Positions 33,232-52,953 of a stretch of DNA of 64,000 bases are shown here, one piece after another (the stretch's first letter is position 1; each line of letters starts with the position of its first letter). A program made the position numbers and the translations under genes. Origin of the DNA: Alphaproteobacteria bacterium (GTDB lineage Bacteria > Pseudomonadota > Alphaproteobacteria > CACIAM-22H2). Under the pieces are notes generated by a model. The model worked only from the letters and a program-made list of their open reading frames with translations. It was not told the DNA's origin and did not search any database. The DNA is taken from contig JAEULA010000008.1 of assembly GCA_016793165.1 (NCBI GenBank), positions 1 to 64,000 on the forward strand. Reading direction: 5' to 3'.

Positions 33232-34661
33232 CACACGATCTTCCCTGGGTTCAGCAGATTCCGCGGATCGAGCGCCGCCTTCAGCGTCCGCATCAGCGCC
33301 ATCGCCGCCGGCGCCTTGTAGTGCGCGAGCTCGTCGCGGCGCAGGCGGCCGATGCCGTGCTCGGCCGAGATCGATCCGCCCATCTCCGTTACGATGTCGT
33401 GAACCACCCGGTTCATCCGCGGGATCTCGGTCTGGAAGGCCTTGGAGTCGCCGCCCTTCGGCGGCAGCAGGTTGAAGTGGATGTTGCCGTCGCCGGCATG
33501 CCCGAAGGCGATCACGCGCGCCCCCGGCAGCGCCGCCCGGCAGGCCGGGATCGCGCGGTCGAGGAACTCGGGCACCCGGCTGACCGCCACCGCCACGTCG
33601 TGGCGGATCGGCACGCCTTCATGCTTCTGCGCGTCCGCCATGTCCTCGCGGATCTTCCAGAACGCCTGGCGCTGCGCACCGCTGCGGGCGAAGGCGGCAT
33701 CGAGCACGAGCCCGTCCTCGAGCGCCGTCTCAAGGACCCCTTCGAACGCCTTGCGCAGACCGTCACCGGTGTCGGCGCCGAACGCCTCGGTCAGGACGTA
33801 CCAGCCATAGGTCGCGCCGAGCGGGTCGCTGTTGCCCGGCACGTTGGCGAAGACAAGGTCCAGGATGTTGCGGTCGATCAGCTCGAAGGCGGTGATCGCG
33901 TCGCCGGTTCCGGCCCGCATGCGCGACAGCAGCTCGATCGCGGCCACCGGGTCCCGCACGGCGATGAACGCGGTCTCGATCGCGCGGGGCTTGGGAAAGA
34001 GCTTCAGCACGGCGGCCGTGATGATCCCGAGCGTGCCCTCGGAGCCGATGAACAGCTGCTTGAGATCGTAGCCGGTGTTGTCCTTGCGCAGCCCGTTCAG
34101 GCCGTTCCAGATCGTGCCGTCCGGCAGCACGACCTCGAGCCCCAGCACCAGATCCCGGGCCATGCCGAAGCGAAGCACCTGGATGCCGCCGGCATTCGTG
34201 GAGAGATTGCCGCCGATCTGGCAGCTGCCTTCGGCCGCAAGGCTGAGCGGGAAGAACCGGTCGGCGTCGTCCGCCGCCTTCTGGATCGCCTGCAGGACGC
34301 AGCCGGCCTCGGCGGTGAGGGTGAAATCGAGCGGCTCGATCGCGCGGATGCGGTTCATGCGCTCGAGCGAGAGCAGCACGCAGCGATCCTCGGGCCGCGG
34401 CACGGAGCCGCCCACCAGCCCGGTATTGCCGCCCTGCGGCACGATGGCGATTGCGCGCCGTGCGCATTGGGCGACGACGAAGGACACCTCGTCGGTGGTC
34501 GCCGGCCGCGCGACGCACAGCGCGGGGCCGCGATACATCCCGCGCCAATCGACGAGGTAGCGCGCCGTCGTGTCGGCGTCGGTGAGGACTCCCGCCGCGC
34601 CGAGGCGCGCGCGCAGGGTCGAAACGAGGTCGTCCGGGTCGGGGGGAGCTGATGCCGTCAT
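33231..34661 (-). CDS. FAD-binding oxidoreductase, GlcD/D-2-hydroxyacid dehydrogenase type
   Basis: A 476-residue FAD_binding_4/FAD-oxidase_C protein. IVPQGGNTGLVGGSVP, GGNLSTNAGGIQVLRFGMARDLVLGLEVV and IGSEGTLGIITAAVLKLFP line the FAD site; FGHAGDGNIHFNLLPP and ISAEHGIGRLRRDEL carry the expected metal and catalytic histidines. Such enzymes oxidise D-2-hydroxyglutarate, D-lactate or glycolate and pass electrons to ETF or quinone. Its stop overlaps the acyl-CoA dehydrogenase start, so the pair likely forms one pathway. Confidence 0.92.
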   Translation of the reverse strand: MTASAPPDPDDLVSTLRARLGAAGVLTDADTTARYLVDWRGMYRGPALCVARPATTDEVSFVVAQCARRAIAIVPQGGNTGLVGGSVPRPEDRCVLLSLERMNRIRAIEPLDFTLTAEAGCVLQAIQKAADDADRFFPLSLAAEGSCQIGGNLSTNAGGIQVLRFGMARDLVLGLEVVLPDGTIWNGLNGLRKDNTGYDLKQLFIGSEGTLGIITAAVLKLFPKPRAIETAFIAVRDPVAAIELLSRMRAGTGDAITAFELIDRNILDLVFANVPGNSDPLGATYGWYVLTEAFGADTGDGLRKAFEGVLETALEDGLVLDAAFARSGAQRQAFWKIREDMADAQKHEGVPIRHDVAVAVSRVPEFLDRAIPACRAALPGARVIAFGHAGDGNIHFNLLPPKGGDSKAFQTEIPRMNRVVHDIVTEMGGSISAEHGIGRLRRDELAHYKAPAAMALMRTLKAALDPRNLLNPGKIV

Positions 34662-34724
34662 GCGCCTGGATTCCGGGGAAGGGGGAGCGAGCCTAGGAAG
34701 GAAACGCCGCCGCGCGAAGAGGCT

Positions 34725-35834
34725 TCATCGTCCCGGCAGAAGCCGAGCGCTCAGCGTGCGCAGGAACCGGCGCCAGAGATGGCGGCGCTTCTCGGTGACC
34801 TGGCCGACGAGAACCGTCGCGACGCCGAGCGCGCCGAGGATCGCCAGCGTGCCGGCAGTCGTCAGGCGGCCGGTATCGAGGGCGTTGCGCAGCGTCAGGA
34901 GGAACGGCCCGTGCAGCAGGTACAGCGTGAAGCTGTAGCCGGCCGCCCAGCGGATCGCGCCGGTCACCGGCGGCGGCGGCTGCCAGTCGAGGCGCTCGAG
35001 GGCGAGGAGGACGCCGGCGAGCAGCAGCGCGACGATGTAGTCGGCGAGATAGTTGCGCGCGTTGCCGGGGCCGTCGCCGACGACCGCGACGAACAGCCGA
35101 TCGCCGAGCCGCCACAGCGCATGGTCGAGATTGACCGCCTCGATCGCGGCATAGGCGGCGACGGAGGATATCAGCAGGAACCACGCCTCGCCGGTCGTCA
35201 GCGGCAGACGCGCGCGCCAGAGATACAACGCGGCGCCCAGCGCCCAGACCGGCCACATCACCAGGAGCTTGGGTCCCAGCGCCGCGACGAGTGCCGCGAG
35301 CGCGATCACCCGCCATGCGCCGCGCAGGAAGGCGAGCGCGGCGAAGGCGACGTAGTACCAGGCCTCGTAATGCAACGACCAATAGGGCGGGATGCTGCTC
35401 GGCACCTCGCGCAGCGACCAGGCCTCGCCGAGGAAGAGGAGATGCAGCGGCAGGTAGATCCACGGCTTCGCCCACTCGTAATGGCCGGCGTAGGCGTCGG
35501 GCGCGTAGTGACGGCCGACCGTGTCGGCGAGCCAGGTGGCGAGCAGCACCGGCATCGCGACCGAATAGAGCCGCGAGGCGCGGTCGATCGCGAAATCGAG
35601 CGGACCGGTGGCGCGCGCGGCGGCATGGCTGATCAGGAATCCCGAAAGCACGAAGAACACGATCACCGCGTCGTGGCCCTCGAGCGGCAGCCATGCCGCG
35701 ACCTCGGCCGAGGCGACGTCCCAGCTGCGCATGTGCGAGAGGACGACCCAGATCGCTGCGATCGCGCGCAGCGCGTCGAGATGGACGGACAGGGCGGGCG
35801 AGACCGGTCGCGGCGCGAAGGTTGCGGCCGGCAT
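34725..35834 (-). CDS. membrane acyltransferase (acyltransferase 3 family)
   Basis: A 369-residue polytopic protein with about ten membrane helices. LSVHLDALRAIAAIWVVLSHMRSW holds the family histidine; VIVFFVLSGFLISHAA and DRASRLYSVAMPVLLATW are characteristic, as is PPYWSLHYEAWYYVAF. Such enzymes O-acylate surface sugars or small molecules. ATG 35834 is taken because earlier codons in the frame lie in the tsaC gene; 14 bases separate the two. Acceptor unknown. Confidence 0.85.
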   Translation of the reverse strand: MPAATFAPRPVSPALSVHLDALRAIAAIWVVLSHMRSWDVASAEVAAWLPLEGHDAVIVFFVLSGFLISHAAARATGPLDFAIDRASRLYSVAMPVLLATWLADTVGRHYAPDAYAGHYEWAKPWIYLPLHLLFLGEAWSLREVPSSIPPYWSLHYEAWYYVAFAALAFLRGAWRVIALAALVAALGPKLLVMWPVWALGAALYLWRARLPLTTGEAWFLLISSVAAYAAIEAVNLDHALWRLGDRLFVAVVGDGPGNARNYLADYIVALLLAGVLLALERLDWQPPPPVTGAIRWAAGYSFTLYLLHGPFLLTLRNALDTGRLTTAGTLAILGALGVATVLVGQVTEKRRHLWRRFLRTLSARLLPGR

Positions 35835-35848
35835 GGCGGCTGGCGCCG

Positions 35849-36832
35849 TCAGGGCCGCGGCGCGGCGGCACGCGCCAGCCGGTCGTTGATCGCGAGCCCG
35901 AGGCCGCGTCGCGGGATCGGCGCGACGGCGATCGTCGTGACGCGGCGCCGGTCCAGCGCGCGCAGCATGGCAAAGAGGTTTGCGGCGGCCTCGCCGAGGT
36001 CGCGCCTGGCGCTGAGCGTCGCGCCCGGCCCGGCGAAGTTGGCCGGCATCGGACCGAAGCCGAGATAGGCCTCGCCCGGCCGCGGATGGCGCACGCCGAG
36101 ACGGACCGCCGCGCGCGGCGCGTAGTGGCTTGCGAGCTGGCCCGGCGCACGCGGCGCGCCGCGGGCCGGGCCGGTCGCGATCCCGCGCGGCCGACGCAGC
36201 CGTGCCCCGAGCGCCGCCTCGATCGCGCCGGGATCGGCCCCGCCGGGCCGCAGCAGGACGGCGCGCGGGCCGGTCAGGTCGACCACCGTCGATTCCACGC
36301 CGACGCGGCTGGCGCCACCGTCGAGGATCGTGTCGACCCGGCGACCGAGATCGCGCGCGACGTGCTCGGCGCGGGTCGGGCTCACGCGACCGGAGCGATT
36401 GGCGCTCGGCGCCACCACCGGGCGAGCGGCGGCGCGCAGCAGCGCCCGCGCGACGTCGTGATCGGGGATCCGGACCGCGAGGCAATCGAGACCGGCGGAC
36501 GCGAGCCACGACACCGGGCAGCGCGCGCGGCGCGGCAGCACGAGCGTGAGCGGCCCCGGCCAGAAGCGCCGGGCGAGGCGGCGCGCGCGGGCATCGAACA
36601 CGACGAGGCGCTCTGCCGCGGCGAGCGTGTCGACGTGGACGATCAGCGGATTGAAGCGCGGACGGCCCTTGGCGGCGTAGATCGCCGCGACGGCGGCGTC
36701 CGACGTCGCGTCGGCGCCGAGCCCATAGACCGTCTCCGTCGGAAATGCCACGAGGCGGCCGGCGCGCAACGCGCGCGCCGCGGCCGCGATCCGGGCGCGG
36801 CTGGGCGAGGGGGCGGGCGCAGGGCGAGCCAT
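35849..36832 (-). CDS. tsaC: threonylcarbamoyl-AMP synthase (Sua5/YwlC type)
   Basis: 327 residues, the long Sua5 form. The YrdC domain shows VAFPTETVYGLGADA, KGRPRFNPLIVHV, FWPGPLTLVLPRR, RIPDHDVARALL and PVVAPSANRSGRVSPT, and RPGGADPGAIEAALG closes it; the C-terminal Sua5 domain follows after SHYAPRAAVRL. It makes threonylcarbamoyl-adenylate for the t6A37 tRNA modification, an essential function. Start and length match the family. Confidence 0.93.
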   Translation of the reverse strand: MARPAPAPSPSRARIAAAARALRAGRLVAFPTETVYGLGADATSDAAVAAIYAAKGRPRFNPLIVHVDTLAAAERLVVFDARARRLARRFWPGPLTLVLPRRARCPVSWLASAGLDCLAVRIPDHDVARALLRAAARPVVAPSANRSGRVSPTRAEHVARDLGRRVDTILDGGASRVGVESTVVDLTGPRAVLLRPGGADPGAIEAALGARLRRPRGIATGPARGAPRAPGQLASHYAPRAAVRLGVRHPRPGEAYLGFGPMPANFAGPGATLSARRDLGEAAANLFAMLRALDRRRVTTIAVAPIPRRGLGLAINDRLARAAAPRP

Positions 36833-37067
36833 GGTCCCGCGCCACCTAGCACGATCATGGCAGCGCGGGGAATGTCGGGTGACCCATCGTGCGATCTCCG
36901 CGGCTCAGCGGCGGCGCGGGCCGCTTCCGGACTTCCCATCGCCACGCCGGGCGGACAAGATCGCCGCCGTTGCGATCCTGCGGCGCCACGTGCCGGGGAC
37001 CGGCGCGTTTCCCTTCTCCCGACGATCCGGTTCCCGCTTGTCCAGCAGCGCTTCCCCGCCTTCCGCG

Positions 37068-38306
37068 ATGCCGCCCGCGCCCGCGATCGGCCGCCGATCC
37101 ATCGCCGCGCTGAGCGGTGCCGCCTTCATGTCCTCGGCCGCGACGCGGGTCGGCGACCCGCTGATCCCGCAGATCGCCAACGATTTCGGGACGGGCGTCG
37201 GCGCCGCGGCGGTCGTGACGACCGCCTTCGCCTTCGCCTACGGCGTGTGCCAGCTCGTGCACGGCCCGTTCGGCGACCGCTTCGGCAAGGTGCGGGTCGT
37301 CACGCTCGCCGCCGCCTGCTCGGCGCTGGGGATGGCGAGCGTTGCGGCCGCGAACTCGCTCGTGACGCTCGGGCTGTTCCGATTCCTCGGCGGCATCACG
37401 GCATCGGCGGTGATCCCGCTGTCGATGGCCTATATCGGCGACGTCGTGCCCTACGAGCAGCGCCAGGCGACCCTCGCGCGGTTCCTGTTCGGGCAGATCC
37501 TCGGCACGGTGTTCGGACAGATCGCCGGCGGCGTGCTCGGCGAGTTCCTGCACTGGCGCGCGATCTTCCTGGTCTTCGGGGCGCTCTACGTCGTCGCGGC
37601 GGCGGTGCTGGCGATGGAGATGCGCTCCGGACGCGTGGTCGATCGGCGCGATGCGGTCGAGCTCACGCCGATGGCGATCCTGCGCCGCTATGCCGGCCTG
37701 CTCGCCCGGCGGCGCGTGCGCATCGTGCTCGCCGTCGTGTTCATCGAGGCGGTGCTGTTCTACGGCGGCTTCACCTTCTTCGGCGCCTATCTGCATACGC
37801 GCTTCGGGCTCGACTACGCGCGCATCGGGCTGATGCTCGCGTTCTTCGGGGTCGGCGGGCTCGTGTACGTGGCCTTCGCTCGGCGTCTGATCGCGACCCT
37901 CGGCGAGCGCGGCTTCGCGGTCGCGGGCGGCATCGTTCTCTGCCTCGCCTTCATCGCCGCGCCGTTCGCGGGGTCGGGGCCCGGCTTCGCGGCCGTCGCG
38001 ACCGGCTGCGGCCTCGGCTTCTACATGATGCACACGACACTGCAGACCAACGCGACGCAGATGGCCCCCGAGGCGCGCGGGTCGGCGGTGTCGATCTTCG
38101 CCTCGTGCCTGTTCATCGGCTCGGCGATCGGCGTCGCCATCGGCGGCGCCATGATCGAGCGCGTCGGCTATGGCGCCCTCTTCACCGCCAGCGGCGTCGG
38201 CCTGCTCGGGCTCGGCTTCGGCTTCAACCTGCTGCTGGCGGCGATCCGCCGCGAGGCGGCTACCAGTTCGTCGAGAGCAGCATCGGCAGATACACCTGCG
38301 AGGTGA
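37068..38306 (+). CDS. MFS transporter (probable drug/metabolite exporter)
   Basis: A 412-residue twelve-helix major facilitator. The loop 2-3 motif A reads [15 protein letters not shown] and a weaker copy follows helix 8 ([12 protein letters not shown]). [24 protein letters not shown] resembles motif C of 12-helix efflux proteins. ATG 37068 fits the usual N-terminus, but no ribosome site is evident and the frame stays open for about 80 codons upstream. The last 47 bases overlap the 3' end of the convergent MPGQ-repeat gene. Substrate unknown. Confidence 0.85.
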
Positions 38307-39369
38307 GCTGCGTGAACGTCGCCTTGGGTCCGATGATCACCTTGTACCCGACGCTGCCGATCGAATAACCAGTCCGCTCCATCGCGATGTTCGGAACGCT
38401 GGTCCCGATCACGAACACGATGAAGTCGCCGGTGTCGATGGCACGCAGCGACATGTTCACGAGCATGAGGCCGCCGGGCAGCGGGTCCTGCCAGTCGTCG
38501 CTCAGGATCATCGCGCGGGCGCCGAGCTGACGCACCCAGCGGTCGACCTGCGCCTGCGCGATCTGCGCCGAGGGCAGCGGTGTGGTCAGGTTCATCGTCT
38601 CGCCCTCGAGCAGGCTGCGGCCGTCGCCCGAGGTGACCCGGCCCTGCGCGTACATGACGCTGCCGACATTCGTCGTCGCCACCAGCGAACCGCGCCAGTC
38701 GCTGGGATGTTCGATCACCACGCCAGGGGCCGTCGGCGCCTGGGTGCGCGTCCATCCCGCCGGTGTCGAGGTCTGGCCGCGATTGGACTGCTTCGTGAGG
38801 CCCCGGAGGATCTGCTGCAACTGCCTGGCGCCGGAGATCCCGGTCGTGTCCATCGCCGAATCCGGGAGCAACGCCGGCGGCGCCCCGAATGGCCCGGGAG
38901 CTTGGCCGGGCATCTGGCCTGGCATCTGACCGGGCATTTGTCCGGGCATCTGGCCTGGCATCGGCTGTCCCGGCATCTGACCGGGCATTTGTCCCGGCAT
39001 CTGACCGGGCATCTGTCCCGGCATCTGTCCCGGCATCTGTTGTCCCGGCATCTGTCCGGGCATCGGCTGTCCCGGCATTTGCCCCGGCATCTGTTGTCCC
39101 GGCATTTGTCCCGGCATCTGTCCGGGCATCTGACCAGGCATCGGCTGTCCTGGCATTTGTCCCGGCATCTGCCCGGGCATCGGCTGTCCGGGCATCTGTC
39201 CCGGCATCGGGGCGTTCGTGGCCGGCGGCGAGGGGAACGGCGCGGGCGTGACGGGCTGGGCGAGGGCGACGGACGTCCCCGCCAACATCGCCACGGCGAG
39301 GACGGCATGCGTCAGGTTGCGGCGCGAACGTCCGCCGTCGCGTCGGTTCATCGGTAGCTTGGCAAACAT
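38260..39369 (-). CDS. secreted MPGQ-repeat protein
   Basis: 369 residues. A Sec signal peptide (basic start, then [18 protein letters not shown]) precedes a low-complexity tract of 24 MPGQ tetrapeptides with single P or Q interruptions (residues 55-156, no charged residue). A folded C-terminal domain follows (about 205-369): [43 protein letters not shown] and [18 protein letters not shown]. No known family recognised. GGAGG lies nine bases before ATG 39369. It is the third gene of the C11-peptidase operon, 43 bases after the second peptidase, and shares P/Q/G/M-rich composition with that peptidase's linker. A surface scaffold or substrate is plausible. Confidence 0.75.
38902..39207 (-). repeat. 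12-bp tandem repeat array encoding MPGQ
   Basis: 24 copies of a 12-base unit (ATGCCGGGACAG and variants) with six single inserted codons, encoding residues 55-156 of the MPGQ protein. Near-identity of many copies suggests recent slippage; copy number change would stay in frame. Confidence 0.92.
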
Positions 39370-39412
39370 CGTCCGGAATCCTCCGCGCCGTCTTTCGGCG
39401 GCGCTCCTGGCG

Positions 39413-42400
39413 TTATTGGAAGCGCTGCATCACGACTTCGGGCGTCACGACGACGTAGCCGTTGCTCTGCATCTCGATCGGCGTGTCGACGCGTTGCGGC
39501 AGCTCGATCGGCTGGCACTGATTGGCCGAGAGACAGAACTGCGTCGGCGACCAGGACTGCACGAGCATGGTCAGCGTCTTGCCGTCGAGCGCCCAGCGCC
39601 CGACGACGTCGACGGTGAGCTGCGTGCTGAACTGCACCTGCTGCTGGTACGTGCCGTTGGGATGGAAGAGCACGGTGAGCATCGCACCGTTTCGGTACTG
39701 GCCGCGCCACCCGCCGATGAGAGCACGCGGGTCGATGTAGTTCATCGTCACCGCCGGCGGCGGCGGCGCGTAGGCGTTGTTCGGAATCGTCCCGGGACCG
39801 CCCGGCTGGAACCCGGGCTGCTGCGGATAGCCCGGCGGCGTCGGATAGCCGGGCGCCTGCGCTTGCGGAAACGCGGGCTGCTGCGGAAATCCGGGGCCCT
39901 GGCCCTGCGGCAGGCCGGGCATCTGTGCCGGCGGGTAGCCCGGCGCCTGCGGCGGGAAGGGCATCGGCGCCTGGCCGACCTGCGGCTGCGGCATCTGCGG
40001 CATCTGCGGTTGCGGCAGCTGCGGTGCCGCAGGCATCGGCGCAGGCGCCACCGGCGCGGGAAGTTGCGGCTGACCGCCGGCGCCGGCCTGCTGCGGCATT
40101 GGCGGCTGCACGGGCGCGGAGCCCTCGCGCCGCAGCGCGATCGCCTGGCCGCGCGCGTCGCCCTTCACGCCGAAGAATACGCGCAGCACCAGCCGGTTCG
40201 GATCGATCGGATCGACGAGGAGGATCTGATGCTCGCCCGCCTTCGGGCTGCGCTGCGCATCGAGATAGATGATCGACAGCGTCGGGATGCGGCGAAGATC
40301 GATGCGGCCGATCGCCGTGAGGCCCTGTTCCTTCAGCTTGTCGCGGAACTGCGGCATCAGGCTCTCGACCTCGAACAGAGTCGTGCGGCCCTGGATCGGC
40401 TTGATCTCGAAGAACGGGGTGCCGTCCTCGAGGGCCCAGCGTCCCGCGAAGCTCTGCGGGTCGCGCGTGCGCGTGGCGTGCAGCGCCGCGAGCATCCGCG
40501 GCTCCGGGTACGCCATCTCGAACTCCTTCATCACCTCGGCGCCCGAGCCGGCGATCGACTCGGCGCTGGCCCAGACGCGGTACTTCGCGGGCCGCGGGAG
40601 ATCGAACACGAGGCGGATGCCGTCGCCCCAGCGCATGGCGGGCCCTGCCGGCACGCGCTCGCGACGGCCGTCGTCGTAGAACACGGTCGCGAGGAAGGTC
40701 ACCTGGGTGTCGTCGGCCGGCCGGACGCTGCGCGGCGTGGGCCGGCCCTCGGGCCCCGGGATCAGGGCGATGATGTTCACCGCTTCGAGCGTCGAGTTCT
40801 CGAACTCGACGATGGCCTCGACGGTGCCGATGTTGGGCAGCTCGATCAGGGCCCGCGCGGCCGGATACGGGATCCCGGCGTCGCCGAGCGCCAGCATGCT
40901 GATCGTCGCCTGGGCGAAGCGGTCGCGGCTGCCGACGACAAGGCCGATGCCCGGCGCGTCGATCGACAGCTTGGCGCCGTTGGCGTCGTAGATCGGCGCC
41001 AGCAGCTCGGCCGCGTCGGTCGCCTTCTGCGCGCGCTCGAGCATCGTCTCGGTGTCGGCGAGGAAGCCGAGGGCCATCAGGATCGTCCGCTTGTTCACGG
41101 GGTCGACCTCGCCCACGCGCGACGTGGCGAAGAGCACGTTCTCGCCCTTCATCGTCATGCGGATGATGGTGTTGTCGCCGAATGCGCCGCGCATGACAGG
41201 CGCGCCGTTGGTGGCGTCGACGATGTCGAGCTGCGAGATCTCCGGCGCCCTCGAACCCTGCGCGATCTGCCCGTGCAACGCCTTGAGGAACGGCAGCCAG
41301 CGCGTCTCCTTCGCGAGCCGCGTGCCGGCGTAGTCGCCGTTCACCATCGTCGGGCGGATCGGCGCGTAGAGCGCGATGCCGTTCGAGGCGCGGTAACGGG
41401 GCGAGGTCAGGTTCGCGATGGTCGCGTCCTTCGCGGCGGCCAGGAAGCGCTCGACCTCGGCGCGGGCCTTGAATCCGTCCCCGGCGGCGGCCTGCACGCG
41501 CTTCATCGCGTCGACGATGTCGACGCTGGCCAGCGCATGGGCCTCGTTCTGCAGGTCGTCGATGCGACCGTTCTTCGCGTACTGCTCGGCCCAAAACAGC
41601 GATCGGCTGAGTGGCGCCCACAGCGCGGGCAGCTCCGGCTCCAGCGCCTGCAGCGCGCCGTCGAACGACGCGAGCAGAGGCGCCGCCTTGTCGAGGTCGA
41701 TCGCCGCGAGGGTCGAGGTCCCTTCACCCGCCGCGATGTTGTAGGCGTGGAAGGTGTCGACGATGCTGCGCGCGAGGTCGTGCGCCGTCGCGGCGGGGTT
41801 GGCGAGGGTCGGCAGGAACTTGTCGTAGGACCAGCCCGATCCCGGCTCGATCGCCTGCGAGGCGACCAGCACGGAGGCAAGATCGCGGAACTCGGCAACC
41901 GTCTCGAGCTGGCCCATCAGGCACATGTCGAAGCCGATCATCGCCAGGCGCGGGACGCCGGCGAGGCGCAGGCCCTCGGCGACGGCCCCCGTCACCTGCG
42001 GCAGCTGGAATCCGGTCTTGCGGCCGGGCGCCTTCGGATTGTCGTAGTCCGTGGCGAGCACCGACCAGCCGCCGCCGTGGTTCCACAGCACGACGCCGTA
42101 GTTCTGCGCCGGGTAGCGCTTGAACGCGTCGGCCATATGCTGCGACAGCAGCCGCGCATCGCTGCTGTCGACCGGCCCGAAGTCCTGCAATAGCTCCGAG
42201 CCGAGGGTCTTGGGGTCGCGATGCGGCCGCATGCGGTAGAGCCGCCCGCCCGACCAGTCGCCGAAGCGCTTGTTGTTCTGCTTGGCGCGATCGACGAAGA
42301 CGATCACCTCGACGCCCGTCTCGGGCAGTCCGAGCTCGATCTCCTTGAGATCCTCGATGCCTGCGGGCTCGAGATCGTTGTCGGCGGCCATCCACACGAA

Positions 42401-42592
42401 CAGCGTCCAGCGGTTGGCCGTCGTCGCGGCGGGAGCCGCCGGCGCCGAGGGGGTCTGGCCGCCGGCGATCGGCTGGCCGGTCGCGGGTTGCGCGGGCGTG
42501 CGTGACGGGATGCCCGCGGCAATGACGATCGCCACAAGGAGTGCGGCGAGGCCGCGTGCGAGCGTCGAAACCCAGCTGTTCATCGGACCCAT
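39413..42592 (-). CDS. secreted clostripain-like (C11) cysteine peptidase, paralogue B
   Basis: 1059 residues. Signal peptide ([14 protein letters not shown]) then a caspase-fold C11 domain from about 60: [15 protein letters not shown], catalytic H172 in [11 protein letters not shown], catalytic C224 in [12 protein letters not shown], then [13 protein letters not shown]. Beta-rich domains follow to about 820, then a 125-residue P/Q/G/M-rich linker with tracts such as [12 protein letters not shown]. The C-terminal 110 residues ([19 protein letters not shown] to QSWSPTQFC) form a domain also present in paralogue A, with two cysteines. Clostripain cleaves after Arg; specificity here is unknown. 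An alternative start is ATG 42583. It lies between its paralogue and the MPGQ gene. Confidence 0.88.
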
Positions 42593-42736
42593 CCCCGTTC
42601 ACGCCCGAACCGATCGCGGCGCGTGGTTGCTTGCATATCTTGCCCGAGTGCCGCGATCGCTGCGAAGCGAATCACCTGGCTTAAGCCCACAACCGGACGA
42701 CGCCGTCGTCGCAATGGGATCCGGGCCGCCACGCGA

Positions 42737-45661
42737 TCACCGCAGCCGCTGGACCACGAAGCTCGGCGTGAGGAGCTGCGTTGCATCGTTGCGGAACTCC
42801 AGGCCCAGGGTCTCTCCGGCGAGCTGCACGGCCTGGCACTGGCCCGGGCCCACGCAATACGTCGAGGGCGACCAGGATTGCGGCTGAAGGATCAGCTGCG
42901 CACCGGAGATCGACCAGCGGCCGACGATGTCGAGGACGAAGCTTGGCCCGTAGGTGATCTGCTGCTGGTACGAGCCGTTGGCGTGAAAATTCATCATCAG
43001 CGGCAGGCCGGCATGGGTGCGGCCACGCCACGTGCCGACCGGGAGCGACGGGTCGACGTAGCCGGTGCTCGGTCCTGCCGGCACCGGCGGCGCGACCGCG
43101 ATCGGCGCACCGATCGCCCCCGGCTGCGGCGGCGGGGCCACGACGGCGGCCGGCACGGGCGCCGGCATTGCCGGTCCGGTCCCGGGCACGCGCACGAGCA
43201 CCAGGGACTGGCCGCGCGGGTCGCCCTTGCGGCCGATCAATGTCCGAATGCGGATGCGCTCCGGATTGGCCGGATCGGCGTAGAGCAATCCCATCTGGCC
43301 CGCCTTCGCCTCGCCGCGGTCGTCGAGCGTCAGCAGCGCGAGAGTCGGCATGCGGCGGCGGTCGATTCGCACGATGCTGCGCTGGCGCGCCTTGGCCAGC
43401 GCGTCGCGCGCGGCGGCATCGGCATACTCGAGCGTGAGCCGATCGGGATCGGCGGGATCGGCGACCAGCGTCCCGAAGGGCGTGCCGTTCTCGAGGCGCC
43501 AGACGCCGGCGTAGCTCGCCGCGGGCCGGGCCCGCGCCGCGTGCACGAACATCATCAGCCCGGGATCCGGCTCGCCGATCTCGAACTCGACCTGCTTCTG
43601 CTCGCCGGCGCCGGCGATCGATTCGGCCCCGACCTGGAACCGGTAGCTGCCCGGGGGCGCCAGATCGACGAGCAGCCGCGGGCCCTTGTCCCAGCTCATG
43701 ACCGGGCCGCCGGGGACGAGATCGACGCGGTCGTTCGGCGATACGGCGGCGACGAGGAACACGATCTGCAATTCGGGACGCGGCTTGATGCCGCGCGGTG
43801 TCACCCGGCCATTGGCGTCCTCGATCAGCGCCGTGATGCCCGTCGCTTCGAGCGAGATCGGATCGAAGTCGACGAGGCTGAGCACCGGACCGAGGCCCGC
43901 GGCATTCACATAGGCGCGGACCTTGGGCTGCGGCAGGCCGTTGACGAAGGAGCGCGCGTCGATCGTCGCATGCGACACGCGGTCACCGATCGCAACGACG
44001 TAGCCGAGCCCCGGCATGTCGGTCGACAGCTGCGCGCCGTTGGCGCTGTATTGCGGCACGAGCAGGTCGGTCGCCTCGCTCGCGGCGCCGCTCGCGAGGC
44101 GCTCGCCGGCCATCTCGGTGTCGACGAGGAACCCGCGTTGCTCGATCAGCAGCCGCGGATGCTGCGGGTCGCGGCGCAGCACCGCGCCGGTCGCGAACAG
44201 CACGCTCTGGCCGCGCAGCACGACGCGCAGCACCGTGTTGGCGCCGAGACCGCTGCGCGTCTGCTCGAGGCCGTTGACCGCGTCCTCGAGCGCCAGGCGG
44301 ACGACTTCCGGCGGTTTCGATCCGCGCTGCGCCTCCGCATGCATCATCGCGAGGAAGGGCAGCCAGCGGCTCTCCTTGGCGAGCCGCGTCGCGGCATAGG
44401 TCTTCGCGATGCTGCCCGCGCGGACGGGCGCATAGACGGCGATGCCGTTCGACGCGCGGTGCCGGTCCGAGTTGAGATTGCCGATCACCGCGGCGCGCAC
44501 CGCGGCCTGGAGGCGCTGGACCTCCGCGGCGGCAGGGAAAGCAGAGAGCGCGTTCGCCTGGATGCGCTTGAACATGTCGACGAGGTCGACGCTGGCGAGC
44601 GCGTGCTCGCCACCCTGCAGGTCGTCGATGCGGCCGCCCGTGGCGTAGCCCTCGGCCCAGAACAACGACTGATTCACCGGTGTCCACAAGGAACCCAGAT
44701 GCGGCAGGAGCGCGGCGAGGGCGTCGTCGAAGCCCTTCAGCACGGGCTCGATGCGCTCGAGATCGATCGCCGACAGCGTCGAGATCGCCTCCCGCGCGGC
44801 GCGATTGGAGCCGTCGAAGGTCTCCACGATCGCGTTGGCAAGTTCCGCGAGCGTCGTGTCCGGACGTGCGAGCACGGGCAGGAAGCGATCGTAGGCCCAG
44901 CCGGTTCCCGGCTCGATCGCTTGCGAGGCGACCAGCATCCGGCCGAGGTCGCGCAGCTCAGCGGCCGTCTCGAGCTGCGCCATCAGGCACATGTCGAAGC
45001 CGATGAGGTCGAGCTTGCCGATGCCGGACTGCGCGATCCCGCCGCGCAGCGCGTCCGCGACCTGCATGATCGTCAGGCTCGTCTTCTTGTTCGGCGCCTG
45101 GGGGTTGTGCTCGTCGACGGCGAGCGAGGACCAGCCGCCGCCGTGGTTCCACAGCACCGTGCCGTAATGCGCCGCCGGAAAGCGCTTGAAGGCCGCGGCC
45201 ATCTGTTCGGCGAAGAGCTTGGGATCGCTGCTGTCGACGGGGCCGAATTCCCGCAGCAGCTCCGATGCGAAGCTTTCGCGGTCGCGGTTCGGCCGGATGC
45301 GGTAGAGCCGGCCGCCGGACCAATCGCCGAAGCGCTTGTTGTTCGGCGTGAAGCGGTCGACGAAGACGATGATCTCGACGCCCTGGTCGGGGATGCCGAG
45401 CTCCATCTCCTTGAGATCCTCGATGCCCTGCGGCTCGAGATCGTTGTCGGCGGCCATCCAGACGAAAAGGGTCCAGCGCGTCGGCGCGGGCTGGGCGGGC
45501 GACGGCGCGGACGCGGCCGGGGGCGTCGGCGTGCCCGCCCCCTGGGCGGCGGCGCGCCCGAAACCGGGGGTCGATGCCAGCAGCAGGAGCATCGCCAGCA
45601 CGACGCCGCGGACGCCGCCGCGGCGTCCGCTCCTCGCCAGGTCGACCACTGCAAGCTGCAT
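42737..45661 (-). CDS. secreted clostripain-like (C11) cysteine peptidase, paralogue A
   Basis: 974 residues, paralogous along the whole length to the next gene downstream. Signal peptide (VVLAMLLLLASTPGFG), C11 domain [15 protein letters not shown] with H173 ([11 protein letters not shown]) and C225 ([12 protein letters not shown]), beta domains, a shorter Pro/Ala linker (APPPQPGAIGAPIAVAPP) and the same C-terminal domain (WRGRTHAGLPLMMNFHANG, QSWSPSTYC). ATG 45661 is taken: GGAG lies seven bases upstream and the signal peptide starts there, although the frame is open 42 codons further. First gene of the three-gene operon; divergent from the SH3/nuclease-like gene across 179 bases. Confidence 0.88.
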   Translation of the reverse strand: MQLAVVDLARSGRRGGVRGVVLAMLLLLASTPGFGRAAAQGAGTPTPPAASAPSPAQPAPTRWTLFVWMAADNDLEPQGIEDLKEMELGIPDQGVEIIVFVDRFTPNNKRFGDWSGGRLYRIRPNRDRESFASELLREFGPVDSSDPKLFAEQMAAAFKRFPAAHYGTVLWNHGGGWSSLAVDEHNPQAPNKKTSLTIMQVADALRGGIAQSGIGKLDLIGFDMCLMAQLETAAELRDLGRMLVASQAIEPGTGWAYDRFLPVLARPDTTLAELANAIVETFDGSNRAAREAISTLSAIDLERIEPVLKGFDDALAALLPHLGSLWTPVNQSLFWAEGYATGGRIDDLQGGEHALASVDLVDMFKRIQANALSAFPAAAEVQRLQAAVRAAVIGNLNSDRHRASNGIAVYAPVRAGSIAKTYAATRLAKESRWLPFLAMMHAEAQRGSKPPEVVRLALEDAVNGLEQTRSGLGANTVLRVVLRGQSVLFATGAVLRRDPQHPRLLIEQRGFLVDTEMAGERLASGAASEATDLLVPQYSANGAQLSTDMPGLGYVVAIGDRVSHATIDARSFVNGLPQPKVRAYVNAAGLGPVLSLVDFDPISLEATGITALIEDANGRVTPRGIKPRPELQIVFLVAAVSPNDRVDLVPGGPVMSWDKGPRLLVDLAPPGSYRFQVGAESIAGAGEQKQVEFEIGEPDPGLMMFVHAARARPAASYAGVWRLENGTPFGTLVADPADPDRLTLEYADAAARDALAKARQRSIVRIDRRRMPTLALLTLDDRGEAKAGQMGLLYADPANPERIRIRTLIGRKGDPRGQSLVLVRVPGTGPAMPAPVPAAVVAPPPQPGAIGAPIAVAPPVPAGPSTGYVDPSLPVGTWRGRTHAGLPLMMNFHANGSYQQQITYGPSFVLDIVGRWSISGAQLILQPQSWSPSTYCVGPGQCQAVQLAGETLGLEFRNDATQLLTPSFVVQRLR

Positions 45662-45840
45662 CCGCGACTCCGTCCGGAACCGTTCGCCCCACCCCGACAA
45701 TGCCTCACGCCGCGCCGAGATGGAGGTGCCGGCGGCTGCGACGGACGGCGTAAGCCGGAGGCGCTGCGGCGTCGCGCTTGCCGCCACCTTGCCCCTCCGC
45801 GAGACTGCCGTCCTCGGTTACGAGCGGGGATCGTCAGGCG

Positions 45841-48075
45841 ATGAAGGCCCAACGCAGCGGCGGCACGAGCGGGAGCCCGGCGATCGCGCGACCGCGTCAC
45901 CGAAACCCGGTGAGCGGGACCGGCACCTGGATCGTCGCGGCACTGCTGGCTCTTGGCGTCGGGACGGCGCGCATGCCGGCAGCGAATGCGCAGTCGGCAC
46001 CGCTCGCGGCAGCGGAATCGGCGACCGTCGCGCTCGCCGCCGCGGTCGAGATCGATGCCCGACTGCTCGTCGCCCTGTATCACGCCCTGTCGACCGATGC
46101 CGCGCCGGCGTCGTTCGATGGCGGCTTCCTGGACGGCGTGCGGGCGCGCGGCGTCGCGGCGCTGCGCGACGGGCCTTACCGGCTGCGCCGCGCCGTTCGG
46201 GCCGCAGCGGGGGCCGACGGGCTCGTGCTCGCGCCGGTCGACGGCGTACCCGGCTTGCAGACGACTGTCGACGACAAGACCTACGACCTGCGGATCGAGA
46301 TGCCGGGCACGCCGCTCCTGGTCCCCGAGGCGATTGCCGCCACGCTCGGCGAGCGGCTGCGCGCGGACGACGTCACGGCCGTCGACCTGATCATCCAGCT
46401 CGAGCGCGTGGCGGCGGACGGCGAGGGCCGCCGCGTCGTCGCATCGACGCTGCGTCGGGCGATCGTGCTCGGCGCCCGCGACAACGAACCGGTCCACACG
46501 ATCGAGGCGTCCCCGATGCGCGCGTCGGGCGATGCGCCGGCAGCCGTTGCGCCGCCGGCGCCGCAGGCCGCACCGATCGCGCCGCCGCCGAGCGTGACGC
46601 TGCCGCCGACCGTGACGCTCGTGCCCGTCGTGCCGCCTCCCGTCGTGTCGCCTCCCGTCGTGCCGCCGCCGTCCGTCGCTGCTGTAGCTCCACCGGCCGC
46701 GGAGCAATCGGGCGCGTCGCCGGCCGCGCAGCAACCCGGCGCGTCGCCGGCCGCGCAGCAACCCGGCGCGTCGCCGGCCGCGACGGCGCCTGCGGCGCCA
46801 TCTCCGCCCGCAAGCGGTTCGACGGCCGAGACGCCGAGCCCCGCCACGGCGTCGCCGCTGCCCGCACCGCTGCCGGTGACACCGGTCGTGCCCGCCGGTC
46901 CGCCGCTGGTCGAGCGCGTCGACGCGCCGATGCTCGTCGTCGCCGGCGGCGATGTCCGCGCGTCGCCGCAGTCGACCGGCGCTCTGCTGTTCGTCGTGGC
47001 GCCGGGCACGTCCATCTTCGTCACGGGACGCGTCTCGGCCGAGTGGATGCAGGTGCGGCTGATCGACGGCAGCCTCGCGTACGTCCTGGCTGCAGTGTTC
47101 ACCGCACCGCCGACCGCCAATCCAATTCCCGCGACGTCCAACATCGCCGGCGCGGCGCCGTCGGCTGCGACCGGTCCGACATCGACCGCGGGCGGCCAGT
47201 CGGCGGCCGTGCCTGTCGCGCCGCCGCCGGCGTTTCCCGCGCCGCCCCCGGTCGTCCCGTCGGCGCCCGCGCCGGTCGGCACACCGGTGGCGACGGCGCC
47301 GCCGATCCCCGTCGTGCCTCCGATCGGCGTCGCGCCGACCACACCCGCGCCCCCGCCGCCGAGCGGGACGCCGCCCACGCCGGCGCCGACGGTGGCGAAC
47401 CCTGTGGCGCCCGCGTCGCCCGCGGCATCGCCGCCATCCGCGGTGCCGGCGCCTCCAGCAGCGGTGCCGGCGCCCCCCGCGGCATCGCCGGCCCCTCCGG
47501 CGGCATTGCCGCCGCCTGCCGACGCTCTCGCCGAGCCCGTCGTGGTCGCCGAGCGCGCAGGCGTCTTGCGCAACGCGGCTTCGCCGCGGGCGCTGCAGGT
47601 GGCGCAGGTGCGGCCCGGTCAGCGCTTCACGCTCCTCCAGGAGCCGCGTGGCGCCGACGGCCAGATCTGGGCCGAGGTCAAGCCGGTCGACGGCGCGCCC
47701 GGCTTCATCCTGCGCAAGGATCTGGTCACGGCGGCGGAATGGGACGCGCCGGTGAGCGGCACCGTGACTCGCGTCATCGACGCGGCGACGCTCGTCGTCG
47801 GCACGCGCACGATCCGGCTCGGCGCCGTCGAGGCGGGGCCGGTGCGCTTCCTCGACATCGTGCGGCCCTGGCTCACCGGCGCGGCGAGCCCGCTGAACTG
47901 CGAGCGCCGTTCCGATGCCGCCTTCGACTGCTTCTCGGCCGACAAGCGCGACGTCGGCGAGACGATGATCCTCAACGGCCTGGCCCGGGCCGGCGCCGGC
48001 GCCCCGGCCTACTACGTCGAGGCACAGGACAAGGCACGCCAGGCGAAGAAGGGACTATGGAGGTCCGCCCGATGA
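45841..48075 (+). CDS. secreted protein with two SH3-like domains and degenerate SNase domain
   Basis: 744 residues. Signal-anchor or signal peptide WIVAALLALGVGTARM; a helical region to about 230; long Pro/Ala linkers; SH3-like domain 1 (PMLVVAGGDVRASPQSTGAL, AEWMQVRLIDGSLAYV); SH3-like domain 2 (GVLRNAASPRALQVAQVRPG, IWAEVKPVDGAPGFILR); then a thermonuclease-like domain (VTRVIDAATLVVGTRTIRLG to EAQDKARQAKKGLW). The SNase metal/catalytic motifs DGDT and RLxGIDAPE are replaced by DAAT and RLGAVEAGP, so nuclease activity is doubtful. The role may be wall or polymer binding. It is co-directional and overlaps the lipoprotein gene by ATGA. Confidence 0.75.
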   Translation: MKAQRSGGTSGSPAIARPRHRNPVSGTGTWIVAALLALGVGTARMPAANAQSAPLAAAESATVALAAAVEIDARLLVALYHALSTDAAPASFDGGFLDGVRARGVAALRDGPYRLRRAVRAAAGADGLVLAPVDGVPGLQTTVDDKTYDLRIEMPGTPLLVPEAIAATLGERLRADDVTAVDLIIQLERVAADGEGRRVVASTLRRAIVLGARDNEPVHTIEASPMRASGDAPAAVAPPAPQAAPIAPPPSVTLPPTVTLVPVVPPPVVSPPVVPPPSVAAVAPPAAEQSGASPAAQQPGASPAAQQPGASPAATAPAAPSPPASGSTAETPSPATASPLPAPLPVTPVVPAGPPLVERVDAPMLVVAGGDVRASPQSTGALLFVVAPGTSIFVTGRVSAEWMQVRLIDGSLAYVLAAVFTAPPTANPIPATSNIAGAAPSAATGPTSTAGGQSAAVPVAPPPAFPAPPPVVPSAPAPVGTPVATAPPIPVVPPIGVAPTTPAPPPPSGTPPTPAPTVANPVAPASPAASPPSAVPAPPAAVPAPPAASPAPPAALPPPADALAEPVVVAERAGVLRNAASPRALQVAQVRPGQRFTLLQEPRGADGQIWAEVKPVDGAPGFILRKDLVTAAEWDAPVSGTVTRVIDAATLVVGTRTIRLGAVEAGPVRFLDIVRPWLTGAASPLNCERRSDAAFDCFSADKRDVGETMILNGLARAGAGAPAYYVEAQDKARQAKKGLWRSAR
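46714..46782 (+). repeat. 27-bp direct repeat in Pro/Ala linker
   Basis: A 27-base unit encoding ASPAAQQPG is repeated exactly at 46714-46740 and 46741-46767, and a third partial copy runs to 46782. In-frame linker expansion in the SH3/SNase-like protein. Confidence 0.85.
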
Positions 48076-48632
48076 CGATGATTTCGCGTTCGCGTTCGCG
48101 TTCGGCCTTCGCGGGCCTCGCACTCCTGGCCCTGGGCGCCTGCGCCACCGGCCCCGAGGCGATGACTCCCGAGCTGTGGCAGCAGTTCCGCGAGGGACGG
48201 ATCGTCCAGGATTGCGGGGCGGCCTGCCTGCCGTCCTGGCTGGGATCGGACAGCAACGTCGCGAAGGCGGCCTACGACAAGGCCGACTGGCGCATGCTGG
48301 CCGAGACCGTGATCCTCTCCGGCTACCGCACCGACCAGACCTATTTCTATCTCGGTCGCGCGGCCGAGGGGCTGGGCCATGCGCCCGCCGCGATCCGCTA
48401 CTACCAGCTCAGCCTGACCCTGCATCGCGGCGCCGACCAGCGCTTCCACTGCTCCAGCAGCCGATCGGAAATCTGCGACGGCCTCGCGATCGAGGCGCTG
48501 ACCGTCCAGCGCCTCGCCGCGCTGCAGGCGGCGCGCCGCCCCGCGGCGCAGCAGCGCCAGCGACCCGGCACCGCGCCGCAGATCGAACTGCCGCCGGCGC
48601 GCGAGCTCGAGCTGCCGCCGCCGCGTCGCTGA
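48072..48632 (+). CDS. small outer-membrane lipoprotein, unknown role
   Basis: 186 residues. A type II signal peptide with lipobox LGAC (SAFAGLALLALGAC) marks it as a lipoprotein. The mature part has PELWQQFREGRIVQDCGAACLPSW, then YFYLGRAAEGLGHAPAAIRYYQLSL, one TPR/Sel1-like helical repeat, and SSSRSEICDGLAIEALT. The C-terminus is Arg/Pro/Gln-rich. Four cysteines may form disulfides. ATG 48072 has GGAGG eight bases upstream and overlaps the previous stop. It is probably a partner of the SH3/SNase-like protein. Confidence 0.78.
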   Translation: MTMISRSRSRSAFAGLALLALGACATGPEAMTPELWQQFREGRIVQDCGAACLPSWLGSDSNVAKAAYDKADWRMLAETVILSGYRTDQTYFYLGRAAEGLGHAPAAIRYYQLSLTLHRGADQRFHCSSSRSEICDGLAIEALTVQRLAALQAARRPAAQQRQRPGTAPQIELPPARELELPPPRR

Positions 48633-48662
48633 CGGCTCGCGGCTCGTCGTTGCGGCCGCGGC

Positions 48663-49442
48663 TCAGCCGCCGCGCGCGATGAAATCGGGATTGCGGAAGC
48701 CGGGCTTGCCGTAGCGCAGCGGCTGGCCGCCCGCGGTCTCGACGCGACCGCCGGCGGCCTCGAGGATCGCGTGGCCGGCGCAGGTGTCCCATTCGCTCGT
48801 CGGTCCGAAGCGCGGATAGAGGTCCGCTTCGCCGGCGGCGAGCGCCCCGAATTTCAGCGCGCTGCCGAGGCGCCGGCGTGCCGCGATCGGGCGGCCATCG
48901 AGATAGGCGTCGAGCGCGGCATCGTCGCCGTGGCTGCGGCTCGACAGCACGACGAGCCCCGACGCCGGCGGCGTGCGCACGCGGATCGACCGCTTCGTGC
49001 CGTCGGGGGTGAAGGCGATCGCGCGGCCGGGGCCCGCCGCGGCCCAGCCATGACCGCCGATCGGCGCCAGCAGGACGCCGAAGACCGGGCGGCCGTCGCG
49101 GACCAGGCCGATATTGATCGAGAACTCGCCGTTGCGGGCGACGAACTCGCGCGTGCCGTCGAGGGGATCGACGAGCCAGAACAGCGACGGCACCGCGCCG
49201 CCGCCGCCGGCAAAGGGCGCGCGCCCCGCGGCCATCTCCTCCTCGGAGACGACCGCGATCTCGGGAGTCAGCTCCCGCAGGCCCGCGACGATCAGCGCCT
49301 CCGAGGCCTCGTCGGCGTCGGTCACCGGGCTGCCGTCGTCCTTGCTGCGCGCGTTCGGGCGGGGCCCGTAATGGACGAGGGCCGCCTTGGCGGCGGCCCT
49401 CGCGAGCGCAATGACGGGATCGATGAGTCCGTCGAGGTCGAT
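48663..49442 (-). CDS. cysQ: CysQ/inositol-monophosphatase family phosphatase, non-canonical start
   Basis: About 259 residues if translation starts at ATC 49442. Family motifs: [35 protein letters not shown] (metal site) and [15 protein letters not shown]. It should remove the 3'-phosphate of PAP or a sugar phosphate. The first usable canonical codon in frame is GTG 49325, but conserved residues ([25 protein letters not shown]) are encoded upstream of it, right up to the stop of the preceding gene. No ATG, GTG or TTG exists there; ATC with GGAG nine bases upstream, or ATT, are the only near-start codons. Function likely; start truly odd. Confidence 0.75.
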
Positions 49443-49448
49443 CGCCGT

Positions 49449-51791
49449 CTACTCCGCGGCCTGGCGGGTCGAGCCGGCGGCGATGACGCGCCAGATCTTC
49501 TCCGGCGTCGCCGGCATGTCGATATGCGTGGCGCCGTACGGCTTCAACGCATCGACGACCGCATTGATGACCGCCGGCGGCGCGCCGATCGCGCCGGCCT
49601 CGCCGCAGCCCTTCACGCCCAGCGGATTGGCCGTGGTCGGGCAGGCCTCGGTGTAGGCGAAGCTGATCGACGGCATGTGCGAGGCGCGCGGCATGCAGTA
49701 GTCCATGAACGAACCGGTGAGCAGCTGGCCCGTTTCCGCGTCGTAGCGCGCGCCCTCGAACAGCGCCTGGCCGATGCCCTGCGCCGTGCCGCCATGGACC
49801 TGGCCGGCGAGGAGAAGGGGGTTGATCACCTTCCCGAAGTCGTCGGTGATCGTGTAGCGGACGACCGCCGGAACGCCGGTGGCCTCGTCGATCTCGACTT
49901 CGACGACGTGGGCGCCGTTGGGATAGGTCGCCGCGGCCGGGTTCATGTTCGAGGTCTCGTCGAGGCCCGGCGACAGGCCCGGCGGGATCTTCGCCATGTT
50001 GAACGCGGCCTGCGCGACCGCCTCGAAGTCCATCGACTTGTCGGTCCCGACGACGGTGAAGGTGCCTTCCTTGAACTCGATGTCGGCCTCCGCCGCCTCG
50101 AGCGCATGCGCGGCGAACTTCTTGCCCTTGGCGATGATTCGGTCGCACGCGCCCCAGATCGCGCTGCCGCCGACGGAGGCCGCGCGGCTGCCGCCGGTGC
50201 CGCCCGGATAGACCGCCATGTCGGTGTCGCCCTGCGCCACGCGCACGCTCTCGAAGGGCACGCCGAGCTTCTCGGCGACGATCTGCGCGTAGGCGGTCTC
50301 GTGGCCCTGGCCGTTCGACTGGTTGCCGATCAGCACCGTGGCGCCGCCGGCCGCGTCGATGCGCACCTGCGCGCTCTCGTCGGGCGCGCCGCCGCAGACC
50401 TCGATGTAGTAGGCGAGGCCGATGCCGCGCAGCTTGCCGCGCTTCCTCGCCTCGGCGCGGCGCGCCTCGAAGCCCTTCCAGTCCGCCGCCTCGAGGCCCT
50501 TGGCCATCGTCGCCGCGAAGTCGCCGGAGTCGTAGGTCTGGCCCATCGGGGTCTTGAACGGCATCTGCTCCGGTCGCACGAAGTTCTTGCGCCGCAGCTC
50601 CTCGGGCGCCACGCCGAGCTCGCGCGCCGCCTTGTCGACGAGGCGCTCGATCAGATACGCGGCCTCCGGCCGGCCTGCGCCACGATAGGCGTCGACCGGC
50701 GCGGTGTTCGTGTACACGCCCTTGACGTTGCACCAGGCCGTATCGACGGCGTAGCAGCCCGGCACCATCCAGGCGAAGAGGTCGGTCGGGATGAAGGGCC
50801 CGTAGTGCGAGAGATACGAGCCGAGATTGGCGTGGCTCACCACGCGGAGCGCGAGGAACCGGTTGTCCTTGTCGAGGGCGACCTCGGCGCGGGTCTGGTG
50901 GTCGCGGCCGTGCGTGTCGGCCAGGAAGGCCTCGCTGCGCTCGCCGGTCCACTTCACGGGCCGGCCGAGCTTGCGCGCGGCGAACATGACGCCGACGTAT
51001 TCGACGAAGAGGAAGATCTTCATGCCGAAGCCGCCGCCGACATCCGGCGTGACGACGCGGATGCGGTTCTCCGCCACCTTGAAGATGTTCTTCGCCAGCA
51101 CCGCGCGCAGGCCCGAGCCGCCCTGGCTGGACACGGTCAGCTGCAGGCGGCCGTCAGCCAGCACCTCGCCGATCGCGTTGCGCGGCTCCATGGAGTTCGG
51201 GATCAGGCGGTTGTTGACGAAGTCGACGCCGACCACGCGATGCGCCTTGGCGAAGGCGGCGTTGGTCTTCGCCTCGTCGCCGAGGCCCCAGTCGAAGACC
51301 TGGTTGTTCTTGGCGAAGTCCCAGACCTGCGGCGCGCCCGGCTTCATCGCGAGATCGATGCTGCCGACCGCCGGCAGCGGCTGCCAGTCGACCTCGACCA
51401 GCTCGCCGGCATCTTTCGCCTGCGCGAGCGTCTCGGCGACGACCATGGCGACCGCGTCGCCCACGAAGCGCGTGCGCCCGACGGCGAGCGCGGGGCGCGG
51501 CGGCATCTCCATCTTCGACCCGTCGCGGTTGGTCAGCGGGACGAGGCAGGGAACGTTGCCGATGCCGGCGGCCTGGAGGTCGGCACCAGTGATCACGGCG
51601 AGCACGCCCGGCGCCTTCGCGGCCGCGACCGTGTCGACCTTGGTGAAGGCCGCATGGGCGTGCGGGGAGCGGACGAAATAGGCGTGGGCCTGGCGCTTGA
51701 TCTGGATGTCGTCCGTATAGCGACCGTTGCCCGTCAACAGCCGCGGGTCCTCGACGCGCTTCACCGACTGCCCGACACCGAACTTCACCAT
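49449..51791 (-). CDS. xanthine dehydrogenase family molybdopterin-binding subunit (CoxL form II-like)
   Basis: A 780-residue molybdenum hydroxylase large subunit. [22 protein letters not shown] opens it; [19 protein letters not shown] and [19 protein letters not shown] bind the cofactor, and [17 protein letters not shown] holds the catalytic Glu. The active-site loop is AYRGAGR, not AYxCSFR, so it is not a true CO dehydrogenase; an aldehyde or N-heterocycle substrate is more likely. The usual FAD and 2Fe-2S subunit genes are absent on both sides, so it is an orphan in this window. ATG 51791 follows a purine-rich site. Stop is followed six bases later by the CysQ-like start. Confidence 0.9.
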
Positions 51792-51967
51792 GGCCGTTCC
51801 CCACCTCGTGTTGCGTATGAGCCGACGATTAGATCGACCCTCGCGCCCACTTGGCAAGGGCGCTGGTTGGCCTTGCGCGCGGCGCGCCGAATGCCCCCTT
51901 GCGGACAATTGCCGGCGGGTCGCGGCCGCGCTTGCGGGCGGCCCGAGGCGCCGCTATCTGAGCGGCC

Positions 51968-52702: not shown

Positions 52703-52752
52703 CCTGCGCAATGGCGCCTTGACCGCCGCGCGGTCTGCGCTAATTCTGGCGC

Positions 52753-52948
52753 CGTTCCGAGGGGAGCCCCGGGTTTGGGGCTGAGAAACGCGCTCGAGCT
52801 GGATCGGTCTTTGCGACGATCCCGCGCCCGCGCGGACCCTTCGAACCTGATCCGGGTCATGCCGGCGAAGGGACGGGACCGCGCCACGGGAGCCATTCGA
52901 CTCTCCTCGTCGTCGCCAACCTCTCGCAGCCGGTCCCCTCGCTGGAGG
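52753..52948 (+). promoter_or_regulatory. TPP (THI-box) riboswitch and expression platform
   Basis: The aptamer spans 52753-52875. P1 pairs CGTTCC (52753-52758) with GGGACG (52870-52875, one G-U). Conserved GGGGCTGAGAAA (CTGAGA at 52781-52786) and ACCCTTCGAACCTGATC followed by GGGTCATGCCGGCGAAGGGA are textbook TPP-binding elements. Downstream, GGGACCG (52875-52881) can pair with CGGTCCC (52931-52937), competing with P1, while CCTC (52937-52940) can pair with the GAGG of the ribosome site (52945-52948). This suggests translational shut-off when TPP is bound. It controls the binding-protein gene starting at 52954. Confidence 0.93.
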
Positions 52949-52953
52949 TTGCG

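Follow-up and report, generated by a model that had tools for sequence, protein, structure and literature searches.

What is a run of five genes for exported proteins, two of them caspase-fold peptidases, doing in a single genome of an alphaproteobacterial family, and do its members work together? The question is raised by a block in a 64,000-nucleotide stretch of contig JAEULA010000008.1, hereafter the window. The initial annotation had proposed a dedicated five-gene system, an envelope or extracellular proteolytic module in which low-complexity tracts act as spacers around the peptidases. Our own reading, to which we assign a probability of about 0.5, is that the block is an acquired, exported, self-activating protease module of the Arg/Lys type, in which calycin modules, in cis and in trans, may bind or restrain the protease. 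All five open reading frames lie where that annotation had placed them, with coding-type GC3, and the features of the block are as follows.

38239..48640, no strand: the whole inserted block, about 10.4 kb, delimited by comparison with genomes G001, G002 and G003
38260..39369, minus strand: the MPGQ gene, encoding a putative exported low-complexity companion of 369 aa (signal peptide and repeats)
38263-38874, minus strand: orphan C-terminal domain of the MPGQ protein
about 38902-39207, minus strand: 24 MPGQ units in a tandem array (sequence count)
39413..42583, minus strand: C11a, a 1056-aa exported C11 peptidase (Pfam, motifs, signal peptide)
39416-39760, minus strand: two-cysteine C-terminal domain of C11a, predicted to be calycin-like
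39728-40126, minus strand: P/Q/G linker of C11a, free of Lys and Arg
41642-42397, minus strand: C11 domain of C11a, followed by the middle region
42737..45661, minus strand: C11b, a 974-aa paralogue of C11a with the same layout
42740-43066, minus strand: two-cysteine C-terminal domain of C11b, predicted to be calycin-like
44705-45463, minus strand: C11 domain of C11b, followed by the middle region and a linker shorter than that of C11a
45662..45840, no strand: divergent intergenic spacer of 179 bases that separates the C11 gene run from the SH3-lipoprotein pair
45841..48075, plus strand: gene for the exported SH3/SNase protein, 744 aa
48072..48632, plus strand: gene for a lipoprotein of about 186 aa with an LGAC lipobox and a weak TPR-like match

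On the minus strand the order is C11b, 153 bases, C11a, 43 bases and the MPGQ gene. Across the spacer, whose length of 179 bases had been given correctly, the lipoprotein gene starts at an ATG at 48072 that overlaps the SH3 stop as ATGA, so that the two genes are coupled. The SH3/SNase protein consists of an N-terminal domain of unknown family, Pro/Ala-rich linkers, two SH3_3 stretches and a degenerate SNase-like C-terminus that scores below the Pfam cut-off, much as the initial annotation had described it. A scan for sigma-70-like promoters and intrinsic terminators found none, the spacer included.

The class of the two enzymes, C11 (clan CD, caspase-fold) cysteine endopeptidases, is well supported. 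Both match PF03415 (Peptidase_C11) far above the Pfam cut-off of 25.8 bits (121.4 and 125.9 bits; E=8.5e-35 and 3.5e-36), and they are the only C11 genes detected in the source genome. C11a and C11b share 51% identity over about 840 columns, and alignment to PDB chains shows the NHGG and FDMC (DMCL) motifs intact in each, which bears out the earlier description of two intact paralogues. The dyad of C11b is H173/C225, counting from 45661; that of C11a is H169/C221 when numbering starts with the Met at 42583, or H172/C224 when it starts at 42592. Neither enzyme belongs to clostripain proper, since against the NCBIfam equivalog TIGR02806 they reach 28.2 and 35.1 bits, below the cut-off of 550.

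Little is known of the C11 family, and PmC11 from Parabacteroides merdae provides the reference, with Asp177 as its main S1 residue and a chain that is cleaved at Lys147 (PMC4850288). In our alignment the S1 Asp, two residues ahead of the catalytic Cys, is conserved in both window enzymes. The loop between His and Cys also carries basic residues (His+15 to +20 in C11a, +19/+20 in C11b), which fall in the region of PmC11 Lys147. The second acidic S1 residue of PmC11, Asp207, is a specificity feature and does not define the family; its place is taken by Ser (C11a) or Thr (C11b), which makes a basic P1 specificity less certain. The solved relatives 5dyn and 6n9j likewise have no equivalent of this residue, which in PmC11 sits on a flexible loop (PMC4850288). 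Judged from these residues, C11a and C11b are probably self-activating exported endopeptidases with a basic P1 preference. Thus the window enzymes resemble PmC11, clostripain and globupain in Pfam family, catalytic dyad, S1 Asp and the basic residues of the activation loop. They differ in their length of about 1000 aa, the long middle region, the P/Q/G linker, the two-cysteine calycin-like C-terminal domain and the replacement of PmC11 Asp207 by Ser/Thr.

We compared window positions 34000-53990 with 23 genomes of the family. The block was missing from all three other sampled genomes of the genus (G001, G002 and G003), in each of which the MFS gene and the IMPase-like flank lie only 8-21 bp apart on one contig. 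In the window, the MFS gene (37063-38238) forms the left flank and homology resumes on the right at 48638-48668, in the IMPase-like gene. Exactly five genes, all complete, make up the insert, and its limits coincide closely with those of genes: the lipoprotein stop marks the right end, and some 20-30 bp separate the MPGQ stop from the left junction. We found no integrase among the block ORFs and no convincing target-site duplication. At 38180-38306 the insertion has moved the stop of the MFS transporter, so that its last codons are inserted DNA and the extended frame overlaps the 3' end of the MPGQ gene. At the right junction, 19 bp are imperfectly duplicated in tandem (48624-48664), which is possibly a scar.

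The simplest reading is that the block was gained as one unit. Its loss from all other species is possible but costlier, since the 22 other sampled family genomes have no C11 genes. An ancestral block lost elsewhere, or a mis-assembled or contaminant segment joined to the contig, would fit the facts that one genome only carries the block, that the contamination estimate of the bin is 7.84% and that the flat GC profile does not set the block apart from its flanks. We nevertheless consider this unlikely: each junction lies where two genes meet, with flanks that are 73-81% identical to those of congeners, which makes a chimera improbable, and gain remains the simpler account of the missing C11 genes.

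Gain as a unit does not by itself make the five genes a system. The 22 other sampled family genomes yielded none of the five proteins, with the exception of the C-terminal domain alone in G005. The five genes thus rarely occur together in relatives, and the idea of a dedicated five-gene system fails on this point, although the block was gained or lost as one unit. C11 genes are rare across the class as well: they exceed the cut-off in three of 385 sampled Alphaproteobacteria, the source genome included, and in three of 249 genomes of the order of the nearest relative. In a collection of 84,980 species genomes, the nearest C11 proteins came from an Alsobacter MAG (L007, 43% identity) and a Pseudomonadaceae MAG (L009, 33%), both with the whole window layout, two-cysteine C-terminal domain included. 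Further near relatives came from Sulfurovaceae and Phycisphaerales MAGs (L008 and L010). Plasmid relatives of C11a matched in the catalytic domain only, at about 24-32% identity.

The Alsobacter locus also has an adjacent P/G/Q-rich secreted protein and a pair of divergent secreted-protein genes. It differs from the window in having one C11 gene, a companion that ends in a rhodanese-like domain and divergent genes with no recognisable homology to the window pair. These two genes, of unknown family (L007:6974-8819), are divergent from the companion and C11 genes in a layout like that of the SH3/lipoprotein pair. In the Pseudomonadaceae MAG (L009:4266-12634), three consecutive genes encode a caspase (C14)-Sel1 protein, an autotransporter and a long C11 peptidase, so that enzymes from two families of the caspase fold are neighbours.

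Long C11 genes were found repeatedly in Desulfovibrionaceae, Succinivibrionaceae, Sutterella and Pyramidobacter. In the tree, one clade of long enzymes (about 900-1300 aa; support 100/99) unites a gut/rumen group with the window pair, L007-L010 and L013, and the gut/rumen subclade within it has support of 100/98. Tandem copies occur in L014, L018, L019, L020 and L085, and L023 has three. Except in Pyramidobacter, the long C11 gene stands next to a companion gene, mostly at a distance of 10-300 bp, whose secreted product combines P/Q/G/N-rich linkers with one to three lipocalin-like repeats that match DUF5640/Lipocalin_4. A profile built from nine companion proteins was used to find others. Where the C11 ORF reached 850 aa or more, 14 of 42 loci had such a companion, compared with 0 of the 44 loci whose longest C11 ORF is shorter. 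Of 69 genes adjacent to long C11, 15 were P/Q/G/N-rich, compared with 6 of 244 others (p=7e-7). The 14 companion loci come from a few families, and the loci are not phylogenetically independent. Among the 15 gut/rumen loci with usable flank (locus ends judged by eye) the companion was present in 14, the exception being L014, whose contig ends inside its tandem. The earlier idea of an exported proteolytic module centred on C11 peptidases, with low-complexity tracts acting as spacers, is supported to this extent: its core, a C11 peptidase with a low-complexity companion, is recurrent, in contrast to the five-gene system built around it.

The Desulfovibrionaceae, Succinivibrionaceae and Sutterella enzymes (L011-L035, L085) resemble the window pair in clade membership, in their length of about 1000 aa, in being often tandem and in the low-complexity secreted companion that adjoins them. 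Their companion has lipocalin-like (DUF5640) repeats, whereas that of the window has MPGQ repeats and an orphan domain. We considered depletion of Lys and Arg in the companions (4.5% compared with 10.7%) as a mark of co-evolution with a basic-specific protease and set it aside: Asp and Glu are similarly low, so the depletion is not specific evidence. On visual inspection, the region upstream of the long C11 gene in a Mailhella MAG (L035:618-8778) contains CRISPR-Cas-like genes and repeat-like sequence. The open-access literature, to which our search was confined, contained no pairing of DUF5640 or lipocalin domains with C11 and no description of the Desulfovibrio enzymes or of this subfamily in gut and rumen bacteria.

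A link between the window enzymes and these companions is provided by the C-terminal domain. Both peptidases carry it with a C-x5-C spacing, so that the same two-cysteine domain is indeed present in each, as had been noted. AlphaFold2 run on five homologues gave an all-beta model (pLDDT 90.5), which we read as a predicted calycin (lipocalin-like) barrel of 8-10 strands. This answers the earlier call for a structure prediction of the peptidase C-termini. The top Foldseek hits were the ToxS periplasmic domain, bacterial lipocalin-like proteins and YedD, with a probability of 1.00 and weak E-values, the best being 1.7e-3 and none below 0.001. Profile comparison of the domain with the companion repeats (E=6.9e-6, probability 84.5%, 51 columns) indicates that the two are probably related. 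Pfam lipocalin and inhibitor models, Inh included, did not match the window domain, and neither Pfam nor PDB sequence searches placed it in the staphostatin or Inh/I38 families. A second lipocalin-like barrel was sought in C11a ahead of the linker, at residues about 690-842, with a negative profile comparison.

In other Alphaproteobacteria the domain is found alone in secreted proteins or lipoproteins encoded by two genes of G005, and behind a Pro-rich linker in G286; the loci concerned are L126:1498-1887, L121:1498-2220 and L132:4708-5589. This occurrence with no C11 gene beside it favours a rival explanation, in which the calycin domains and companions are modules for binding or anchoring to envelope, polysaccharide or substrate, the C11 enzymes are digestive or process the cell surface, and no inhibition takes place. 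A small domain on a linker is a layout typical of binding modules, and the Foldseek neighbours YedD and ToxS bind protein partners. What this explanation leaves unaccounted for is the lipocalin-repeat protein that adjoins long C11 in all but one of the testable gut/rumen loci, and we regard it as a credible alternative with the odds somewhat against it.

The place of the MPGQ protein is less clear from homology. The count of 24 MPGQ repeats proved exact and is mirrored in the DNA as a 12-bp tandem repeat (23.5 copies, score 263). The protein has no cysteine, a P+Q+G+N fraction of 0.44 and no Pfam or NCBIfam match. A twin-arginine-like SRRNL in its signal peptide (39260-39369) makes the Tat route possible. 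Its C-terminal domain had no usable homologue in the 385 Alphaproteobacteria, in plasmids or in the family genomes, and did not match the lipocalin-repeat profile. The structure prediction that had been suggested for it, run on the single sequence, gave no confident fold (pLDDT 34.5). Among long-C11 loci with companions, the MPGQ gene thus agrees in being an adjacent gene for a P/Q/G-rich secreted protein and departs from them in having no lipocalin repeat. By position and composition, it may fill the role of the lipocalin companions.

The divergent pair also has few relatives. For the SH3/SNase protein, weak fragmentary matches only were found in the family, and no homologue in the four genomes with the nearest long-C11 loci. 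The lipoprotein had no usable homologue in family relatives or plasmids, and neither protein had a counterpart in the long-C11 loci examined. These absences, the orphan MPGQ domain and the divergent transcription of the two sides would all be expected of a chance assemblage that was gained horizontally, in which the C11 pair, perhaps with the MPGQ protein, cooperate and the SH3/SNase protein and lipoprotein are passengers. Such an origin is harder to reconcile with an insert of exactly five complete genes ending flush with gene ends, or with the export of all five proteins, four of which have low-complexity Pro-rich tracts. We hold it to be a serious, if rather less than even, prospect.

Under the reading that we prefer, that of an acquired exported-protease module, signal peptides would export the two C11 endopeptidases, which would probably activate themselves by cleavage at the basic residues between the catalytic His and Cys and then cut after Arg or Lys, either in the periplasm or extracellularly. 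Each would bear a C-terminal calycin barrel on a long linker free of Lys and Arg, and the MPGQ protein would occupy the place held in related loci by the companion with lipocalin-like repeats. The most likely role of the calycin modules and companion would be to bind the protease, or what surrounds it, and to restrain or position its activity, restraint being modelled on the lipocalin-like staphostatins that act on staphopains. For the SH3/SNase protein and the lipoprotein, a role as envelope partners is probable.

There is precedent for genes of lipocalin-like inhibitors beside those of bacterial cysteine proteases (PMC2873492). In the staphopain-staphostatin and Bacteroides C10 protease-Bfi pairs, as here, the gene for a lipocalin-like protein adjoins the protease gene; those proteases belong to families C47 and C10, and inhibition, a possible role here, is known or proposed for them (PMC2873492). 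The alphaproteobacterial protease inhibitor U-Omp19 combines a disordered tract, which carries the activity, with a disulfide-bearing calycin barrel (PMC9486555). The window domain is similar to U-Omp19 and Inh (I38) in joining a disordered segment to a small barrel of this kind in Alphaproteobacteria (PMC9486555), and differs in having no Pfam Inh match and in its C-x5-C spacing. No inhibitor of any C11 enzyme was reported in the open-access literature that we found.

In conclusion, long C11 peptidases with calycin modules might form a widespread and undescribed secreted protease-regulator system, spanning Alphaproteobacteria, Gammaproteobacteria, Sutterella, Desulfovibrionaceae and possibly Synergistota, in which lipocalin-like domains in cis and in trans would control a caspase-fold protease and of which the window copy was moved horizontally, duplicated and given a different companion; we offer this broader proposal tentatively. 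The occupied and empty sites can be used for comparing closely related species. The consistent genomic partner offers a direct handle on the role of C11 peptidases, which are relatives of the caspases, in gut and rumen bacteria. If the calycin companions do restrain C11 enzymes, they would represent another, independent pairing of a lipocalin-like protein with a bacterial cysteine protease.
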